From: Oceanobacillus sojae
Lineage (GTDB): Bacteria > Bacillota > Bacilli > Bacillales > Amphibacillaceae
DNA length: 64,000 bases
Assembly (NCBI RefSeq): GCF_900162665.1
Contig: NZ_LT727812.1
Coordinates: 205,649-269,648, forward strand
Reading direction: 5' to 3'
The notes beneath the pieces were generated by a model. It worked only from the letters and a program-made list of their open reading frames with translations. It was not told where the DNA came from and searched no databases. Each line of letters opens with the position of its first letter. Positions within the stretch are counted from its first letter, which is position 1. This document shows positions 21,123 to 30,491 of the stretch, one piece after another. A program made the position numbers and the translations under genes.

Positions 21123-22397
21123 TTAATAAAGGGTGATGGAAGATTCATTCATACCTTCAAGAATTTCTTTTACTCGTGATAAAAATCTTCCGCATACAAG
21201 TCCGTCTAAAATACGATGATCCAGGGAAAGGGATAAATTCACCATATCACGGGCTGCAAACATATCCTCAATAATGACAGGCCGTTTTACAATTGATTCT
21301 ACTTGTAAAATTGCTGCCTGTGGAGAATTAATCACTCCCATCGAGGAAACGGACCCAAAGGAGCCTGTGTTATTTACAGTAAATGTACCACCCTGCATAT
21401 CCTCCGCTGACAGTTTACCCTGGCGTGCTTTTGCAGCAAGTGTTGTAATATCACGGGCAATTGCTTTCACTGTTTTTTCATCTGCGTGCTTAATCACAGG
21501 AACAAATAATTCTTTATCCTTGGCTACTGCAATGGATAAATGAACATCTTTTTTCTGAATAATCTTATCTCCTGCCCACATACTGTTTAATTCAGGGTAT
21601 TCCTTTAAGCCTTGGGCAACTGCCTTTACAAAAAACGCAAAAGGCGTTAAAGAAAAGCCTTCCTGATTTTTAAATGATTCCTTTACGCTATTACGATATT
21701 TTACTAAGTCCGTAACATCAACCTCTATCTGCATCCAGGCATGCGGGATTTCCTGCTTTGACCGGACCATGTTGTCAGCAATTACTTTTCGGACACCTTT
21801 CACAGGAATTTCAATATCTCCTGCAGAGGTCTGGATGCTTCCTCTTGGAACAGATGGTGTTTCTTTTGCAGGAGATGTCCCTGCTTTCTTCTCTTGCGAA
21901 GGCTTTACCTGTTCTTGAGATGCATCTTTATTTCCAATAAACTTCTCAACATCTTTTCTGGTAATTCTTCCACCCTTGCCTGTTCCATCAATTTTAGTTA
22001 AGTCGACATTATGCTCCTGAGATAAGCGTAATACGGCAGGGGAATATCTTTTTTTCATGGAACTGTCTTTATTCGCTGCTTCATTCTTAACTTTATCATC
22101 TTCCATATCCGGTTCTTTTTCACCAGCTGCTTCCGAATCTCCTGAAGCAGCAGCCTGATCTGTTTCTATATAACAGATCAGGGCCCCGATCTCCACTGTT
22201 TCTCCTTCTTCTACCACAAGCTCTGTGATGGTCCCTGTATAGGAGGAGGGGACTTCTGCATTTACTTTATCCGTCATTACTTCAGCAATAGGGTCGTATT
22301 TATTCACCTGGTCCCCGACAGAAATAAGCCAAGTACTGACCGTTCCTTCTGTTACACTCTCACCAAGCTGAGGCATTGTCATTTTTTCAACACTCAT
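21123..22397 (-). CDS. bkdB: Branched-chain alpha-keto acid dehydrogenase E2 (lipoamide acyltransferase)
   Basis: E2 core of the bkd complex: moves the branched acyl group from lipoate to CoA. 424 residues: lipoyl domain at 1-77 with the lipoyl lysine in MTDKVNAEV, a Ser/Glu-rich linker, the E1/E3-binding domain (YSPAVLRLSQEHNVDL, about 117-155), a second linker, and the catalytic domain from about 195, with HRILDG. Last gene of the operon; the repeat hairpin follows at once. Confidence 0.96.
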   Translation of the reverse strand: MSVEKMTMPQLGESVTEGTVSTWLISVGDQVNKYDPIAEVMTDKVNAEVPSSYTGTITELVVEEGETVEIGALICYIETDQAAASGDSEAAGEKEPDMEDDKVKNEAANKDSSMKKRYSPAVLRLSQEHNVDLTKIDGTGKGGRITRKDVEKFIGNKDASQEQVKPSQEKKAGTSPAKETPSVPRGSIQTSAGDIEIPVKGVRKVIADNMVRSKQEIPHAWMQIEVDVTDLVKYRNSVKESFKNQEGFSLTPFAFFVKAVAQGLKEYPELNSMWAGDKIIQKKDVHLSIAVAKDKELFVPVIKHADEKTVKAIARDITTLAAKARQGKLSAEDMQGGTFTVNNTGSFGSVSSMGVINSPQAAILQVESIVKRPVIIEDMFAARDMVNLSLSLDHRILDGLVCGRFLSRVKEILEGMNESSITLY

Positions 22398-22411
22398 AGG
22401 TCTACCTCCAA

Positions 22412-23395
22412 TTAATATTCCGCTAGGTCGCGCATTGCTTTTTCAACTTTATCCGGGTTTAACATAAAATATTTTTCCATTGTCGGTGCATAAGGCATCG
22501 CCGGCACATCAGGACCAGCCAGACGCTCGATTGGAGCGTCTAATTCAAATAAGCAATTCTCTGAAATAATGGCAGCTGCTTCACTTATCACACTGCCTTC
22601 TTTATTATCCTCCGTAACAAGGAGAACCTTTCCGGTTTTGCTGGCCGCTTCTATAATAGCTTCCTGATCCAGCGGATATACCGTACGTAAATCAAGGATA
22701 TGTGCTTCTATTCCGTCTGCTGCTAATCTCTCGGCAGCCTGCAATGCAAAATGAACACATAGACCATAAGTAATGACAGTAATATCGTCACCTTCTCTTT
22801 TTACATCTGCTTTTCCAATCGGAAGAACATAATCATCCTCAGGTACTTCTTCTTTCAGTAAACGATAAGCACGCTTATGTTCTAAAAATAAGACAGGATC
22901 ATTATCGCGAATAGAGGCTTTCAATAACCCTTTTACATCATACGGACTTGAGGGCATAACAATTTTTAAACCCGGCTGATTTGCAAACAGTGCTTCTACA
23001 GATTGAGAGTGATACAAAGCACCATGTACACCGCCTCCATATGGAGCCCGGATCGTAATAGGGCAATTCCAATCATTGTTGGAGCGATAGCGGATTTTTG
23101 CAGCTTCGGAAACTATTTGGTTTACTGCCGGCATGATAAAATCAGCAAATTGCATCTCTGCAACCGGCCGTTTTCCGTACATTGCAGCACCAATAGCAAC
23201 ACCCGCAATAGCAGACTCTGCCAGTGGGGTATCCAATACACGGTCTTCCCCAAAAGTATCATATAGTCCATGTGTTGCTTTAAACACGCCACCCTTTTTA
23301 CCTACATCCTCACCAAGTATAAATACATTCTCATCTTTTTGCATCTCTTCTTTTAGAGCTGCTGTAATTGCTTGTATATAAGACATAACAGGCAT
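22412..23395 (-). CDS. bkdAB: Branched-chain alpha-keto acid dehydrogenase E1 beta
   Basis: Beta subunit of the thiamine-diphosphate E1. It decarboxylates keto acids of Leu, Val and Ile together with BkdAA. 327 residues with the transketolase-like pyrimidine and C-terminal domains (LGEDVGKKGGVFKAT, ADFIMPAVNQIVSEAAKIRY, CPITIRAPYGGGVHGALYHSQS). 14 bp separate it from bkdB and 3 bp from bkdAA, so all are cotranscribed. Confidence 0.96.
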   Translation of the reverse strand: MPVMSYIQAITAALKEEMQKDENVFILGEDVGKKGGVFKATHGLYDTFGEDRVLDTPLAESAIAGVAIGAAMYGKRPVAEMQFADFIMPAVNQIVSEAAKIRYRSNNDWNCPITIRAPYGGGVHGALYHSQSVEALFANQPGLKIVMPSSPYDVKGLLKASIRDNDPVLFLEHKRAYRLLKEEVPEDDYVLPIGKADVKREGDDITVITYGLCVHFALQAAERLAADGIEAHILDLRTVYPLDQEAIIEAASKTGKVLLVTEDNKEGSVISEAAAIISENCLFELDAPIERLAGPDVPAMPYAPTMEKYFMLNPDKVEKAMRDLAEY

Positions 23396-23398
23396 TGA

Positions 23399-24403
23399 TT
23401 ATTCCCCTCCTTCGTCCAATTCCTCATAAACATACTTCAATGTATCCTCTGGAGCTGCATATGGAGCTTTTTCTGCATAATCTGTTGCTTCATTCACAAG
23501 CTCGTTCAGGCGCTCATGAATTTCTTTTTCTTTTGCGTCATCTATAATATTCTTTTCTTTTAATTTTTCAGCAAATGTAATAATGGAATCCTTCTCTTTT
23601 GCTTTCTTTACTTCATCCTGTTCCCGATAAACACGGTCATCATCATCACTGGAGTGTGCTGTGAAGCGATAGGTTACTGCTTCAATCAGCGTTGGGCCTT
23701 CCCCGTTGACCGCTCTTTCTCGTGCTTCTTTGACTGCCTGATAAACAGCAATAGGATCATTTCCATCCACAGTAACTCCTGGCATTCCATAAGATGACGC
23801 TCTTTGGGAAACCGTCTCACTTGCTACTTGACGGTCATAAGGTACAGAAATAGCATACTTATTATTTTCAACCATTGTAATAACCGGAAGTTTATGGACA
23901 CCTGCAAAGTTTAATCCCTCATGAAAATCACCTTGGTTGGAAGAACCTTCTCCCAAGGTAACAAACGTTGCAATATCTTTTTTATCCATTTTGCTTGCTA
24001 ATGCTACACCAACCGCATGAGGGACTTGCGTTGTTACCGGAGATGAACCGGTCAGAATGCGATTTTTCTTTTGACCAAAGTGGCCTGGCATTTGACGGCC
24101 TGCTGAATTTGGATCTTCTGCTTTTGCAAACGCAAATAGCATTAAATCTTTTGCTGTCATTCCAAAAGCTAAAACGACTCCTAAATCTCTATAATACGGA
24201 GCTGTATAATCAACAGAACGATCCAGTGCAAAAGCTGCTCCGACCTGTGCTGCTTCCTGTCCTTGACAGGAAACCACAAATGGTATTTTTCCTGAACGGT
24301 TTAACAGCCACATTCTTTCATCTATCTTTCTTGCTAACAGCATCATTTCAAACATTTCGACAGCCATCTCGTTGCTTACATTTTCCCAAGATGTTTGTTT
24401 CAT
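23399..24403 (-). CDS. bkdAA: Branched-chain alpha-keto acid dehydrogenase E1 alpha
   Basis: Alpha subunit of E1 with the thiamine-diphosphate motif of about GEGSSNQGDFHEGLNFAGVHKLPVITMVENN (residues about 150-180), and EAVTYRFTAHSSDDDD near the phosphorylation loop region. 334 residues. Stands between lpdV and bkdAB. Confidence 0.95.
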   Translation of the reverse strand: MKQTSWENVSNEMAVEMFEMMLLARKIDERMWLLNRSGKIPFVVSCQGQEAAQVGAAFALDRSVDYTAPYYRDLGVVLAFGMTAKDLMLFAFAKAEDPNSAGRQMPGHFGQKKNRILTGSSPVTTQVPHAVGVALASKMDKKDIATFVTLGEGSSNQGDFHEGLNFAGVHKLPVITMVENNKYAISVPYDRQVASETVSQRASSYGMPGVTVDGNDPIAVYQAVKEARERAVNGEGPTLIEAVTYRFTAHSSDDDDRVYREQDEVKKAKEKDSIITFAEKLKEKNIIDDAKEKEIHERLNELVNEATDYAEKAPYAAPEDTLKYVYEELDEGGE

Positions 24404-24449
24404 ATTATTTCCCTCCTTCAGCCATTTCCCAGCATTAAATCGTGTTCAT

Positions 24450-25871
24450 TTATCCATGAATCTGTTTTCCGTCAACTGCCAGAGCTGCTTCACCGATAAC
24501 CTCTGATAAGGATGGATGCGGGTGAATTGTCTGACTGATTTCCCATGCCGTTGCGTCTAATACTTTTGCCAATCCGGCTTCAGATATCATATCTGTTACA
24601 TGTGGACCAATCATATGGACTCCCAATAAATCCTGTGTTTTTTTATCTGTAATGATTTTTACAAAGCCGTCTGTTTCACCATAAACCAGCGCTTTTCCAA
24701 CAGCTTTGAAAGGAAATTTTCCGATGACAAGCTCATAACCTTCTTCTTTTGCCTGTTTCTCTGTCAGGCCGACCCTTGCTGCTTCCGGGTTTGCATATAT
24801 ACAACTTGATACTGCATTATAATCTATTTTTTGCGGGTTTTCATCTGCGATATGCTCAACAGCAATAATGCCTTCATGAGAAGCCACATGTGCAAGCTGC
24901 ATACCACCGATTACATCTCCAATTGCATAAATATGTGATTCCTTTGTCTGGTAAAAACCGTTTGTATCAATGACATGATTCGAAATTTGGATATCCGTGT
25001 TCTCAATTCCGATATTTTCGATATTTGCTTTTCTTCCGACAGATACAAGCATTTTTTCAGCTTCAAAGCGTTCGGTTTTATCCCCAATCATTGCCTCAAC
25101 GGAGATATAATCGTTTTTCGCTAATGTATCTGCCTGGACATTAGCACCCGTTACAATTTTCACGCCTCTTTTTTTCAATTGCTTTTCCATCTCTTTTGCC
25201 ACATCTTTATCCTCTGTCGGCAAAATTTGCTTTTGATATTCCAGCACAGTTACATCTACCCCGAAATCATTCAGCATGGAGGCCCATTCAACACCGATAA
25301 CTCCACCGCCTACAATGAGCATGGATTTCGGAAGTTCTTCCATTTCCAGCGCTTCATTGGAGCTGATGACAAGCTCCCCATCAAAATCCAGACCTGGTAA
25401 GGTATTTGGCTCAGAACCGGTTGCGATTAACACATTTTTAGGAATTAACATATCGTTTTCGTCGCCGTTTTCATACTCGACAGAGATAGTACCAGGCATT
25501 GGCGAGAAAATACTTGGCCCTAAGACACGGCCAAATCCCTGATAGACATCAATCTTTCCTTTTTTCATCAGCCCCTGGACACCTTTGTGTAATTGATCAA
25601 CGATTGCTTTTTTTCTTTGCTGTACCTTGATAAAGTTTAAGACTGGCTCATTTACCTCCACACCAAATTCATCAGCATTTCTGGTTTGCTGATAAACTTC
25701 CGCACTGCGGAGTAATGCTTTAGAAGGAATACAGCCTCTATGTAAACATGTTCCTCCTAATGCAGCTTTTTCAACGATTGCTACTTTCATTTTTAATTGA
25801 CTTGCACGGATAGCAGCAACATAGCCGCCTGTTCCGCCGCCTAAAATGACTAAATCGTACTCTGCAGCCAT
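24450..25871 (-). CDS. lpdV: Dihydrolipoyl dehydrogenase (E3) of the bkd complex
   Basis: Flavoprotein that reoxidises lipoamide. 473 residues. FAD motif ILGGGTGGYVAAI, redox-active Cys pair in GGTCLHRGCIPSKALL, NAD motif IVGGGVIGVEWASM and the C-terminal HPHPSLSE catalytic histidine-glutamate pair. It abuts the buk-like stop directly (TAG then ATG). Confidence 0.96.
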   Translation of the reverse strand: MAAEYDLVILGGGTGGYVAAIRASQLKMKVAIVEKAALGGTCLHRGCIPSKALLRSAEVYQQTRNADEFGVEVNEPVLNFIKVQQRKKAIVDQLHKGVQGLMKKGKIDVYQGFGRVLGPSIFSPMPGTISVEYENGDENDMLIPKNVLIATGSEPNTLPGLDFDGELVISSNEALEMEELPKSMLIVGGGVIGVEWASMLNDFGVDVTVLEYQKQILPTEDKDVAKEMEKQLKKRGVKIVTGANVQADTLAKNDYISVEAMIGDKTERFEAEKMLVSVGRKANIENIGIENTDIQISNHVIDTNGFYQTKESHIYAIGDVIGGMQLAHVASHEGIIAVEHIADENPQKIDYNAVSSCIYANPEAARVGLTEKQAKEEGYELVIGKFPFKAVGKALVYGETDGFVKIITDKKTQDLLGVHMIGPHVTDMISEAGLAKVLDATAWEISQTIHPHPSLSEVIGEAALAVDGKQIHG

Positions 25872-26966
25872 CTAATTAGCCTCCTCTGCTACGTATATCT
25901 TTACTTCCCCGGGATTATTTAAAATTTCTAAAACCCCTTCATTCATTGCCTCTAAATCATTTTTTCCCGGAAATACCATTACATCAGCAATCCAGTTTAT
26001 TCTCGGAATAATTGCATCAATGACAAAATCATTCTCATTAATCTTTCCGGTAAAAACAATTCCGTCAACCTCACCGTGTAATACTGTACTCATTGCTCCA
26101 ATTTCTTTGGCAATCTGGTATGCCTGCGATTCGATTATTTCTTTTGTGTGCGGATCTCCCTGCAGCAGCCTGGAACGGATTATAGCAGGATCTTCTGTGT
26201 GCAAATAAGCCTTTAATCCCCCAGCTTGCTGTAATTGATTCCAATCAAAATCCTGTACACTGGAATATTGCTCAGATATATAGTTCAGAAAGCCCTTTAA
26301 CGGGACACTTCCGGAGCGATCAATCGTAAAAGGACCTTCTCCATCAACACCATTCGTTACATCTATAATTTTTCCCGAGTGATGTGAAGCAATGGTAATC
26401 CCTCTCGCAATATGAATGGAGATAAGTTTTAAAGAACTGTATGCAGCTCCAATTTGTTTAGCCGCAATTCTGCCGGCATGCCGATGATTAAGAGAATGAA
26501 AGATGCTGGCCCTCTTTATTTCCGGAATGCCTGTATACTTAGCTATTTTCTGCATTTCATCCACTACTGGCGGGTCAACAATATACGCCTGTATATTTAA
26601 ATTCTCAGCAATGTCATAAGCAAGGATCGCTCCCAGGTTAGATACATGCTCTCCATAGGCATTTGTTTTTAAATCATAGAGCATCGCATCATTTACCTGA
26701 TAAGTTCCACCTCTGATTGGACGTAATATTCCACCCCGGCCGCATACACTTATGAAACGCGATGTATTCATTCCATCCAAATCAAGCTGTTCAAAAATGG
26801 CCTGCTTTCTGTAAACGACCTGATCGTTAAGCTGGTCAAAATGATTTAACTCATCTTCATCGTGAATAATCGTCTGCTGATATAAATGATGGTTTCCTTC
26901 AAATACACCAATTGTGGTGATATACATGTCGGGGTAGATAACTAAAACACGTCCACTCTGACTCAC
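25872..26966 (-). CDS. buk: Butyrate/branched-chain fatty-acid kinase-like protein with degenerate active-site motifs
   Basis: By position and by conserved segments (CGRGGILRPIRGGTYQVN at about 75-92, IVDPPVVDEM, ASIFHSLN, DVTNGVDGEGPF) this is the Buk of the bkd operon, 364 residues. The key ASKHA motifs have drifted. Residues 11-18 read YPDMYITT where kinases have NPGS[ST]STK. HIARGI (185-190) replaces HLGGGI. FTGKIN (305-310) replaces LTGGIA. I infer weak or no kinase activity. No ptb gene precedes it. It may have another role or be decaying, though the frame is fully open. Confidence 0.8.
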   Translation of the reverse strand: MSQSGRVLVIYPDMYITTIGVFEGNHHLYQQTIIHDEDELNHFDQLNDQVVYRKQAIFEQLDLDGMNTSRFISVCGRGGILRPIRGGTYQVNDAMLYDLKTNAYGEHVSNLGAILAYDIAENLNIQAYIVDPPVVDEMQKIAKYTGIPEIKRASIFHSLNHRHAGRIAAKQIGAAYSSLKLISIHIARGITIASHHSGKIIDVTNGVDGEGPFTIDRSGSVPLKGFLNYISEQYSSVQDFDWNQLQQAGGLKAYLHTEDPAIIRSRLLQGDPHTKEIIESQAYQIAKEIGAMSTVLHGEVDGIVFTGKINENDFVIDAIIPRINWIADVMVFPGKNDLEAMNEGVLEILNNPGEVKIYVAEEAN

Positions 26967-27023
26967 AATACAACCTCCATTATTTTCCTATAATAGTACC
27001 TTATAAAATGAAGAGGTACGATT

Positions 27024-28121
27024 CTACTGTCTATGATCTAAAATATTCCGTTCATTTATAATAAATTGGCTGCGGGAATTTTTCTTTGCCTGAATTCTTT
27101 CTTCCGCAAGACGGTCAGCTGCAATATATGTTGGTATTTGATCACGATTCGAAATCGCAAATACCTGCTCCAGGTTTTTGTATATACGCTGTACATTATG
27201 TAATGCACGCTCACGATTATAACCAATTAATTCATCAGCAACATTTATTACTCCGCCTGCATTAATCACATAATCCGGGGCATATAAAATTCCGTTTTGA
27301 TGCAGGATATCACCATGCTCTGGACTTTTCAGCTGATTATTAGCAGATCCTGCAACTACTTTGGCTTTTAGTCTCGGAATTGTATTATCATTAATGGTCG
27401 CACCAAGTGCACAAGGTGCATAGATATCACATTCCACATCGTAAATATCATCCGGGTCTACTGCTTTGGCATTAAAATCATTCTGCGCACGCTTCACTGC
27501 ATCCTTATTGATATCTGTTACTATTAATTCGGCACCTTCTTCATGCAATAATTTACATAAGCTGTAGGCAACATTTCCGACTCCTTGAACAGCAATCACT
27601 TTACCTTCTAAGGATTCTGTTCCGAAAGCCTCCTTAGCTGTTGCTTTCATTCCCTGGTATATTCCGAGTGCTGTAACCGGTGAAGGATTTCCTGCTGCTC
27701 CGCTGTAAGAAGTCACTCCTGTAACATATTCTGTTTCCAGCGCAATTTGATCCATGTCTGATTCATTTGTCCCTACATCTTCAGCAGTAATATATCTGCC
27801 GCTTAAGCTTTGGATATAACGTCCGAATGCACGGAACATTTCCGGATTCTTATCCTTCTTAGGATCTCCTATAATAACTGTTTTTCCGCCGCCAAGATCT
27901 AAACCGGCAGCAGCATTTTTATATGTCATTCCTTTTGCCAGCCGCAGGGCATCCTCAATTGCTTCTTCTTCTGAAGCATAGGTCCACATTCTGGTTCCTC
28001 CCAGTGCAGGCCCCAATGTTGTATCATGGATTGCGATAATAGCTTTCAGCCCGGATTGTTTATCCTGACAGAAAAGCAACTGCTCATAATCATATTTTTC
28101 CAAGTAATTAAAGATTTCCAT
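27024..28121 (-). CDS. bcd: Leucine dehydrogenase (branched-chain amino acid dehydrogenase)
   Basis: Deaminates Leu, Ile and Val to the keto acids used by the bkd complex. 365 residues. [11 protein letters not shown] carries the catalytic lysine near 80, [11 protein letters not shown] the catalytic Asp, [12 protein letters not shown] the NAD-binding glycine loop. The start at 28121 ([14 protein letters not shown]) fits the GGAGGGG 7 bases upstream; an open stretch to 28145 precedes it. In B. subtilis ptb lies between bkdR and bcd; here only 136 bp remain. Confidence 0.95.
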
Positions 28122-28202
28122 ATTTACCCCTCCTGAATAAATCAACGATAAATTATTATCTAACTTATATTTATCTATAAAATTTTAAATATGCTTTAAA
28201 TC

Positions 28203-28251
28203 GGATGATTGTCCTCATCCACTATTTATATAACTCTGCAAAATATTGCAG
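28203..28251. promoter_or_regulatory. Two dyads between bkdR and bcd, possible regulator sites
   Basis: GGATGA-N6-TCATCC (28203-28220) and CTGCAA-N4-TTGCAG (28236-28251, 14 of 16 palindromic). The second begins 7 bp from the bkdR end and could be an operator for BkdR. No TGGCAC-N5-TTGCA (-24/-12) promoter was found in 28122-28257. A sigma-A promoter is not clear. The first may be the bkdR terminator stem, though no U-tract follows. Confidence 0.4.
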
Positions 28252-28257
28252 AATAAA

Positions 28258-30291
28258 TTACTCAATCTGATATTTTTCAAGCTTATAATACAGATTGCGA
28301 ACGGATATTTGTAAGACTTTTGCTGTTTTCGTCTTATTTTTATTACATTGCTGATAAACTTCCTGCAAATACATTTTTTCATAACGGTCCAGTGCTTCTT
28401 GTAATTTTAGCGGTTCCTCTGTTTCCACACTGCCTTCTGAAAACGTACTTTGTTTTGTTTGCAATTCCGGTAAATGAGAAGCCTCAATCTGTTCCTCTGT
28501 ATTACCAATAAATATCATAGAATGACTTATAACATTAGCCATTTCTCTTATATTACCCGGCCAATGATATTGCATCAGCTTATCCAGAGCTTCATCGGAT
28601 ATTCCTTGAACATTTTTCCCGTATTCTTCATTAAGCTGATAAATAATATGTTCTACCAGCATAGGGATATCCTCTTTCCGTTCTTTTAATGACGGAATGG
28701 ATATCGGCAGTTTATTAATTTGATAATACAGATCCTCCCGAAATTTCTTATTCATAACAGCTTTTTCTAAATTAATATTTGTCCCGGCAATAACACGGAC
28801 ATCAACAGAAACAGGCTTTGTTGCTCCAACAGGAACGACCTGGTTCTCTTTTAACACATGCAGTAATTTTTCCTGAATAGCTAAGGAGAGATTACCAATC
28901 TCATCAAGAAAGATGCTCCCGTTATTAGCCTGTTCAAACAATCCTTTCCGGCCTGTTAATTTCTCACCTGCTGCACCGAACAATTCTTTCTCAAGCATTG
29001 ATTCAGACAATGTTGAACAATTAACGCGGAGGAATTTATTATATTTGCGATTACTTTCATGATGTATAGCATGAGCGAACAGTTCTTTACCAGTGCCTGT
29101 TTCTCCTCTTAAAAGAACAATCGCGGGTGTCTTTGCGCCTACTTTTGCCTGTTCTAAAGCAAGTTTCATTTCTGGTGAATTACCGATAATATCATCAAAC
29201 GTATACCTTGCTTCCAAATTACGGATAATCTGTCTGGCTCTTTTTAACTCTTTTGTCACAGATTGTAATTCACTGACGTCATGAAGTACACCGACACTGC
29301 CTTTCATTTTTCCTTGAACAATAACCGGCGCAACATTTACAATGACATCTTTCCTTGCAGGACCAACCTTCATATGTACTCCGCGAACAGCACGGCGCGT
29401 TTTTAAAACCTTCAGATGTACACTGTCTCCTTCTGATATATCCACTGTTGCCGGTTTACCAATCACTTCATCTTCTGTTAAACCGGTTAAACGTGTATAA
29501 GCAGGATTAATGATTAAGCCGTTCCCATTCTCATCAACAACACTGATCGCTTCATCAGAGGATTTAATAATTGCCTCCAGCATTGTCTTTATTTCATTTA
29601 AGTCTGTATTCTCTTCTGCTAATTGAACTACCTCTGTAATATCCTTGAAAACAGCAAAAGCTCCTACCAGATCACCAGTTTTATTAATAATTGGTATACG
29701 TGATGCAATTACTTTCTTACCATTATCTAAAATCGTCTTCTGGTTTAATTCTTTTCTCTGACTCCTCAGAACATGTGACAAACGGCTGGTTTTCAATAAT
29801 TCTTTTACATGCTTTCCTTTGTAGTCTCTTTCCTTTTTGCCGAGAATCTGCTCCGCCCGACGATTTAGCAGCTGGACCTGCTCGTCTTTATTAACTACAA
29901 TCATGCCGTCATTCATATGATTTAAAATTAATTCCAGACGGCTTGCCTGTACCTTTACTTCATTCGTTAAAGTAGTCTTTTCATGAATTAATTCATAAAT
30001 AATATTTGCTACAGATCCGGGAATAATGATCGTTTTTCTTGGAAAGAGCTCAATCATTTTTTCAAATAAATCTTCCTCGCCTGTTACGTTTACAACAATA
30101 TCAATATTATGGTGGATCCACTCTTTCCATTCTGTACTTGTATGAATATTCATCTCTTCAGCTAACTTCATGGCAGGAGCATTCGGATCCTTGTCAACAA
30201 TTGCACAAATTTTCATTCGTTTTGTTTCTTTAAATAGGCGAAATAATGCTGTACCACCTTTTCCGGCGCCGACTATCAGAATTTGCTTCAT
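28258..30291 (-). CDS. bkdR: BkdR-like PAS/AAA+/Fis-HTH regulator of the bkd operon, with altered sigma-54 contact loop
   Basis: 677 residues. A Rossmann-like N-terminal domain (ILIVGAGKGG), two PAS domains (about 118-218 and 235-340), an AAA+ domain with Walker A GETGTGKE (396-403) and Walker B IFLDEIG, and a C-terminal Fis-type helix-turn-helix (about 645-672). The GAFTGA loop used to touch sigma-54 reads GEKLTG (442-447), and the Arg that follows FREDL by four residues is Gln (524). I infer lost sigma-54 activation. Start chosen 9 bases after AAGGTGG. Confidence 0.85.
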   Translation of the reverse strand: MKQILIVGAGKGGTALFRLFKETKRMKICAIVDKDPNAPAMKLAEEMNIHTSTEWKEWIHHNIDIVVNVTGEEDLFEKMIELFPRKTIIIPGSVANIIYELIHEKTTLTNEVKVQASRLELILNHMNDGMIVVNKDEQVQLLNRRAEQILGKKERDYKGKHVKELLKTSRLSHVLRSQRKELNQKTILDNGKKVIASRIPIINKTGDLVGAFAVFKDITEVVQLAEENTDLNEIKTMLEAIIKSSDEAISVVDENGNGLIINPAYTRLTGLTEDEVIGKPATVDISEGDSVHLKVLKTRRAVRGVHMKVGPARKDVIVNVAPVIVQGKMKGSVGVLHDVSELQSVTKELKRARQIIRNLEARYTFDDIIGNSPEMKLALEQAKVGAKTPAIVLLRGETGTGKELFAHAIHHESNRKYNKFLRVNCSTLSESMLEKELFGAAGEKLTGRKGLFEQANNGSIFLDEIGNLSLAIQEKLLHVLKENQVVPVGATKPVSVDVRVIAGTNINLEKAVMNKKFREDLYYQINKLPISIPSLKERKEDIPMLVEHIIYQLNEEYGKNVQGISDEALDKLMQYHWPGNIREMANVISHSMIFIGNTEEQIEASHLPELQTKQSTFSEGSVETEEPLKLQEALDRYEKMYLQEVYQQCNKNKTKTAKVLQISVRNLYYKLEKYQIE

Positions 30292-30491
30292 ACTTTTCAT
30301 CCACCTTGAATTTATTTGCACACTTTCATCATACGATACCGTGCATAATTTAGCAAACGAATTCTATTTCTATTTTTCGACTTATTTTGATATACTTATG
30401 TCGACGCTAAAAAAAAGTGGAAATACATATTGGTTTAAAAGTGCTCAGCAGAAAAAGTTATTGGAACTATATATAAAGGAGTTCGAGTTTT

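Follow-up and report, generated by a model that had tools for sequence, protein, structure and literature searches.

The BkdR regulator encoded in the stretch of DNA analyzed here (64,000 nucleotides, hereafter the window) has lost the GAFTGA motif of loop 1, and the bkd operon that follows it has lost its -24/-12 promoter. The two losses go together in the relatives surveyed and, with SigL and other activators still present in the genome, they strongly support, at the level of sequence, the proposal of an earlier note on this DNA that this BkdR would be independent of sigma-54. The overall reading, which we consider reasonably probable, is that BkdR was uncoupled from sigma-54 and survives as a regulator of sigma-A promoters.

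The gene bkdR is the minus-strand ORF at 28258-30291 (677 residues from ATG; ORF list, translation and Pfam), reading ...EKELFGAAGEKLTGRKGLFEQANNGS...FREDLYYQINKLP..., and starting at a GTG upstream, at 30321, would add 10 residues. The protein is composed of an N-terminal DapB_N/Rossmann-like region, two PAS domains, an AAA+ domain that scores 185 bits with the Pfam model Sigma54_activat and contains Walker A and Walker B, a lid and a Fis-type HTH. It is 97% identical to the BkdR of O. sojae, and its full-length similarity and its place directly ahead of the bkd genes mark it as the orthologue of the activator that serves the bkd operon with sigma-54. Where GAFTGA belongs, the protein reads GEKLTG (28951-28968, minus strand, residues 442-447; translation and alignment), exactly as the earlier note had described. 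The entire shortened loop, AAGEKLTGR (28948-28974, minus strand, residues 440-448), is five residues shorter than in the GAFTGA-bearing orthologues. Since the alignment leaves 9 residues between LFG and KG against 14 in those orthologues, GAFTGA was deleted and the remainder rewritten, rather than exchanged letter for letter.

Two further positions of the AAA+ domain have changed, as judged from an alignment to PspF, TyrR and DhaR of E. coli K-12. In PspF, Arg131 belongs to loop 2 and Arg168 is the second arginine finger. Opposite the former, where at least 97% of the 107 genes with both motif and promoter (see below) encode Arg, the window BkdR has Pro487 (28831-28833, minus strand), and opposite the latter it has Gln524 (28720-28722, minus strand), the Gln correctly noticed before as following FREDLYY. 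The equivalents of PspF K42, D107, E108, R162 and R227 are retained, so that Walker A, Walker B, the sensor II Arg and one arginine finger (Arg518, equivalent to R162) are in place. A predicted structure (12 sequences; mean pLDDT 63, pTM 0.28) was set aside. The idea that this BkdR is TyrR-like holds as an analogy, because loop 1 is deleted in E. coli TyrR too, but not as membership: the TyrR model NF008085 of NCBIfam gives 260.3 bits where its cut-off is 576, and TyrR keeps the Arg at the R168 position that the window BkdR has lost.

Behind bkdR, on the same minus strand, lie bcd, the first structural gene (27024-28121; ORF list), and the rest of the operon, buk, lpdV, bkdAA, bkdAB and bkdB (21123-26966; order and translations); these names, with bcd as leucine dehydrogenase, and those of ptb and lysC/aspartokinase, are the ones we take to apply. 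No ptb separates bkdR from bcd in the window operon, which keeps buk (25872-28121); the genome encodes a single PTA_PTB protein, far off (G000:C16:107601-108545), and this one protein may have to fill both functions. Directly behind bkdR, many relatives have a gene other than bcd, which presumably resembles ptb.

For the promoter we used a matrix derived from the 107 promoters of the motif-bearing genes, which score at least 17.6 bits where shuffled regions reach at most 7.4; given this origin, a very different promoter would be missed. Between 20000 and 31500, the best match to this -24/-12 matrix reaches 8.3 bits and lies inside lpdV, and over the whole window the -24/-12 pattern occurs at chance level (5 found, 6.0 expected), with the best matrix match (11.5 bits, about 35127, plus strand) outside the bkd region. 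What is kept is the old enhancer dyad TCTGCAATATTTTGCAGA (TGCAA-N4-TTGCA; 28235-28252, minus strand), directly past the bkdR stop codon. The remaining bkdR-bcd gap (28122-28234, minus strand) shows no -24/-12 element, no terminator-like site and no sigma-A promoter above chance. In the genes with motif and promoter, a TGCA-N6-TGCA dyad, mostly TGCAA-N4-TTGCA, sits between bkdR and the -24 element; it is perfect in 65 of 107 and has at most one mismatch in 93 of 107, the corresponding frequencies in 150-nt shuffles being 0.1% and 3.8%. All 34 genes outside the motif and promoter class together retain 8 perfect dyads, or 9 with one mismatch allowed, most of them in the window's own clade, so that most other loss lineages have dropped it. 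A spacing of N7, which we also considered, occurs in 1/107 only and was rejected. The strict dyad occurs twice more in the genome, both times inside coding sequence according to the ORF lists, hence no second BkdR target was found.

The genome itself encodes sigL, whose presence the earlier note had suggested checking. Perfect TTGGCAY-N5-TTGCW matches number 13 elsewhere in the genome and none for the reversed control pattern, and other activators (L001, L002, L005 and L006) keep GAFTGA or GSFTGA. One locus, L004 (G000:C16:338358-338858), has GSYTDA in place of GAFTGA and, some 0.6 kb downstream of it, a perfect -24/-12 match. In the genus survey rpoN was present in 28 of 28 genomes. In the family survey it is retained in 15 of the 21 motif-less genomes, and loss of SigL was therefore rejected as the general cause; it is missing from the other 6 of 21, from 1 of 67 genomes with motif and promoter and from 1 of 3 with the motif only, such that rpoN loss is linked with motif loss in some lineages. 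The draft genome G146 (about 150 contigs) has an intact BkdR motif and promoter at L126 and no rpoN that we could find; sequence may be absent from the draft, or the loss may be very recent. The O. jeddahense and O. oncorhynchi type genomes carry a second, diverged rpoN (L061, G010:C2:177430-177846; L062, G015:C1:1678354-1678770; 90-96 bits) within about 6-11 kb of an additional gene for a sigma-54 activator; the two may form a sigma-54 system of their own.

We then asked how motif and promoter are distributed among relatives. BkdR was found in 23 of 28 genomes in the genus survey (E at most 1e-100) and in 91 of 159 in the family survey (E at most 1e-150), and the best 80 of 333 contig loci were added, giving 171 loci. 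Loci identical over the last 450 residues were merged, which left 141 distinct genes and dropped 30; the sequences of L124, L126 and L128-L130 are N-terminally partial. The motif was counted as kept only in the strict form GAF[TS]GA. The window gene belongs to clade A (L011-L017 and L134, the last from O. sp. J11TS1), in which all 8 distinct genes are motif-less; genes identical to three of them over the last 450 residues belong to O. sojae, O. jeddahense and O. oncorhynchi. The nearest relatives outside the clade in the genus survey, L018 and L019, have a perfect GAFTGA. A second, separate motif-less group of the genus, clade B, consists of L031, L033 and L179 (O. luteolus, O. indicireducens and O. 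alkalisoli). A sequencing or assembly error in the loop, raised earlier as a possible refutation, is refuted by the eight clade A genes, which come from separate assemblies, share the loss and have related but different loops.

Between bkdR and bcd, the genus survey found TGGCA[C/T]-N5-TTGC[A/T] in 14/14 motif-bearing genes and in 0/9 motif-less ones. Over the 141 distinct genes, 107 have motif and promoter, 5 the motif only, 29 neither and 0 the promoter only. Five genes counted as motif-less carry substitutions, GTFSGA (L163), DAFSGA (L101), GAFEGA (L181 and L186) and GAFSES (L108), that are possibly functional according to the portion of PMC3162934 available to us; recounted as motif-bearing, they give 107 genes with both, 10 with the motif only, 0 with the promoter only and 24 with neither. 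With a looser promoter pattern, two motif-less genes had matches, both poor (L166, -7.3 bits; L169, -13.2 bits), and the motif-only gene L110 has a 12.0-bit match about 490 nt downstream, probably inside the next gene. By parsimony, on a tree from which the loop columns had been left out, the loop changed at least 8 times and the promoter at least 10; branches are long and the placement of L122, L125 and L127 is unsure. In a tree-aware pair test with only 5 supported pairs, the promoter follows the loop in 2 to 4 of 5 across random pairings, and the remaining pairs show no promoter difference and never the contrary (p 0.125 at best). In L025 (G019), BkdR keeps GAFTGA and the promoter and lacks 4 residues directly after the motif.

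Some genes seem to have been caught midway. Two motif-bearing Halobacillus genes have an intact loop beside a broken promoter: L158 has TTGGCAC at the right place with the -12 element destroyed, and in L157 the -12 element is damaged (6.3 bits). Such half-broken promoters beside intact loops suggest that the promoter goes first and, reading the sequences in this way, it was probably lost before the loop. Other loops of Halobacillus and Thalassobacillus differ from the motif by one or two residues (GAFPGA, GSFPGA, GAFEGA, GAFYGA and GTFSGA), none with a promoter that reaches the threshold. The gap after bkdR has shrunk to 22-49 nt in Halobacillus and in g33/g34 and measures 76 in the Thalassobacillus gene L169; there is little or no room for a promoter in the shrunken gaps, so the bkd genes of Halobacillus and g33/g34 are most likely read from upstream. 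The start-codon rule behind these lengths is a simple one and goes wrong for at least two motif and promoter genes (26 and 42 nt); the short gaps of the motif-less genes L163, L166, L181, L108, L112 and L115 were inspected by eye.

Despite the loss of the loop, BkdR appears to be maintained. Whole-protein dN/dS in 8 clade A pairs is 0.044-0.058, similar to the 0.051-0.073 of the three measurable motif-bearing pairs of the genus, and by this measure BkdR is under purifying selection; the pairs L026/L028, L031/L033 and L181/L186 are saturated and have no value. The residues that changed fastest at the protein level are those of the loop. The 107 reference genes have 235 near-invariant columns, and at 23 of these clade A carries fixed changes: AAA+ accounts for 17, the lid for 4, and PAS2 and the N-terminal region for 1 each. 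PAS1 and the HTH have none, and in the HTH 13 of 13 such columns are unchanged. The changes cluster at loops 1 and 2 and at the second arginine finger. Clade B has 11 fixed changes, 10 of them in AAA+, and shares with clade A the loop and S435, A474 and Q481. No fixed change is common to all five Halobacillus genes, in keeping with a more recent loss.

The other DNA element that has been conserved is ahead of bkdR. A sigma-A-type promoter, TTGCTA-17-TATGAT, lies at 30328-30356 (minus strand); the pattern search by itself found 1 with 1.2 expected by chance, and its support is the conservation in relatives. Seven nucleotides past the -10, at about +1, relatives have TGCAA-N4-TTGCA at what would be an operator position, and the window has TGCAAATAAATTCA (30307-30320, minus strand; 8/10 letters), identical in 8/8 clade A genes. 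A dyad at +1 is usually a mark of repression. Across the 73 upstream regions compared for this distance, 34 genes combine a match to the promoter pattern with a dyad that has no more than one mismatch, and in every one of them exactly 7 nt separate -10 and dyad; 8 more, those of clade A, have two dyad mismatches, and 31 have no match to the promoter pattern. The full geometry (-35/17/-10/7/dyad, at least 18 of 22 letters, shuffle maximum 16) was scored in the upstream regions of 91 of the 141 genes. It is found in 26 of the 27 motif-less genes examined (29 exist; the exception is L127), in 5/5 motif-only genes and in 36/59 motif and promoter genes. The remaining 23 of those 59, with Bacillus-type outgroups among the lowest, fall below 18, as does L127, so that the geometry is not universal.

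In clade A the core promoter is also flanked by a 12-nt inverted repeat (left arm GAATTCGTTTGC, 30353-30364; right arm GCAAATAAATTC, 30308-30319; minus strand), whose arms match at 10/12 in the window, 12/12 in L015 and 10 to 12 of 12 in the four clade A genes tested, a level reached by 0-2 of 100 shuffles. The three motif-bearing genes tested do not show it (8/12, reached by 81-92 of 100 shuffles). In 8 clade A pairs, 81-86 of the 88 positions of the promoter block are identical against 28-50% of the bkdR-bcd gap (dyad and ribosome site omitted, indels counted as differences), at a dS of 0.85-1.4 for six of these pairs. The motif-bearing pair L018/L019 has 84/88 in the block and 78% in the gap, and L020/L021 has 75/88 in the block; Fisher values for this comparison ignore kinship, and no weight was put on them.

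At the far end of the process, 5 of the 28 genus genomes have no BkdR match although bcd is there. The region upstream of bcd could be read in 3 of these 5 genomes (all except those of L232 and L233), and by eye it has TTGTAC-17-TATAAT in G004 and G027 and TTGTAC-18-TATAAT in G001. A sigma-A-type promoter before bcd is thus a real outcome in the genus. In the same three genomes (L229-L231), a cre-like AAAGCG box accompanies this near-consensus promoter.

These observations could be joined as follows. The ancestral BkdR would have had two parts to play, repressing at its own sigma-A promoter and activating bkd with sigma-54, from dyads of one type. A BkdR-type dyad, an autorepression site to judge by its position, would already have stood at about +1 of the bkdR promoter, which is of sigma-A type. 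In the first step the bkdR-bcd gap would have lost its -24/-12 promoter; with it would have gone the reason to keep GAFTGA, and decay of the loop, of the loop-2 arginine and of the second arginine finger may have followed. Continued sensing of its signal and DNA binding would be the reason why BkdR was kept, its remaining work being most likely at sigma-A promoters. The bkd genes would now be transcribed by read-through from the bkdR promoter, possibly helped in clade A by a weak gap promoter under the control of the kept dyad. In its most specific form, namely a two-faced ancestor that in several lineages shed its activator face step by step and always in one sequence (promoter, loop, and later the ATPase), so that what remains is a regulator that controls a fused bkdR-bkd operon through sigma-A alone, we regard this account as evenly balanced between right and wrong. 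Weighing against it, the gap of clade A is unshrunken (135-191 nt) and the +1 site degenerate, and the downstream dyad, kept in 7 of its 8 genes (6 perfect, 1 with one mismatch), also fits a hidden sigma-A promoter in the gap.

A rival explanation places the control of bkd in that gap: BkdR, bound to the kept dyad, would directly activate a weak sigma-A promoter there in the manner of TyrR, without ATP-driven remodelling. That the dyad stayed in clade A while the surrounding gap diverged speaks for it. So do the same deletion in TyrR, the string TATAGATA..TATAAG common to five of the eight clade A gaps (L011, L012, L013, L015 and L134), and NtrC of R. capsulatus and Caulobacter, which has no GAFTGA and is reported at sigma-70 promoters in the accessible part of PMC10274813. 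However, sigma-A-like matches are at chance in the window gap (2 on the two strands together, with 1.8 expected) and no better than shuffles in the eight clade A gaps (p 0.20-0.89), and the dyad is lost in O. jeddahense (L015). We think it a serious but rather doubtful explanation; the sequences point to a retained repressor role at bkdR's own promoter at least as much as to activation of this type.

Two other explanations appear very improbable. BkdR might still depend on sigma-54, with an unusual loop and a promoter elsewhere, as SigL and other -24/-12 sites exist in the genome and five genes counted as motif-less, the window's not among them, carry possibly functional substitutions; but the best match near the operon is far below the reference promoters and those in the window are at chance, none of the 29 motif-less genes has the promoter, and loop 2 and one arginine finger have changed too. 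Just as improbably, bkdR could be a decaying gene without function, which would agree with the missing loop and catalytic residue and with the genomes that have no BkdR match beside bcd, but not with a dN/dS of about 0.05 at a dS around 1, as in the motif-bearing relatives, the intact HTH, or the lack of internal stops in all 23 genes of the genus survey.

To our knowledge, sigma-54 activators that act without sigma-54 are single cases whose origin is not settled. Here, one orthologue family forms a series of intact pairs, half-broken promoters with an intact loop, loops with one or two changed residues and full deletions, up to loss of the bkdR gene with a sigma-A-type promoter instead in some genomes. 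Being a natural series among close relatives, it makes the order and cause of the switch testable and, if our reading is true, it would be a repeatable route to TyrR-type, sigma-54-independent regulators with intermediates alive today. Calling these proteins "sigma-54-dependent regulators" on the strength of Pfam PF00158 alone is probably a mistake. It was already known that changes in GAFTGA mark sigma-54-independent regulators, as the consulted portions of PMC3162934 and PMC10274813 state. The loss of the BkdR loop joined to that of the promoter was not found in the open-access literature, although the supplement of PMC3162934 on defective activators, outside that search, may name some of these proteins.

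The sensory domains of TyrR and DhaR differ from those of BkdR. Both E. coli proteins are similar to the window BkdR in having an activator-type AAA+ domain with a shortened loop 1 (alignment), and both are named as shown to be sigma-70 dependent in the part of PMC3162934 we had; unlike the window BkdR, TyrR keeps the Arg at PspF R168 and DhaR is changed at more catalytic positions. NtrC of Rhodobacter capsulatus and Caulobacter is a parallel in that orthologues of a sigma-54 activator had GAFTGA deleted and are reported to work at sigma-70 promoters, but these are alphaproteobacterial response regulators, and the available sections of PMC10274813 contain no count of matching promoter loss. 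BkdR of B. subtilis and B. thuringiensis shares with the window protein its domain content, including in B. thuringiensis the two PAS/PAC domains, and its position ahead of the bkd operon, yet both keep GAF[T/S]GA (S in B. subtilis), and the bkd operon of B. thuringiensis keeps its -24/-12 promoter (TTGGCACGGTATTTGCT), BkdR and sigma-54 being required, according to the accessible text of PMC4428206 and PMC3162934. A parallel to the dual role proposed for the ancestral BkdR is SoxR of B. thuringiensis, a sigma-54 activator that, as far as the available text of PMC4941409 goes, represses its own promoter, which has no -12/-24 elements, through the same binding site; it keeps GAFTGA, as the part of PMC4428206 at hand reports for all eight B. 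thuringiensis activators.
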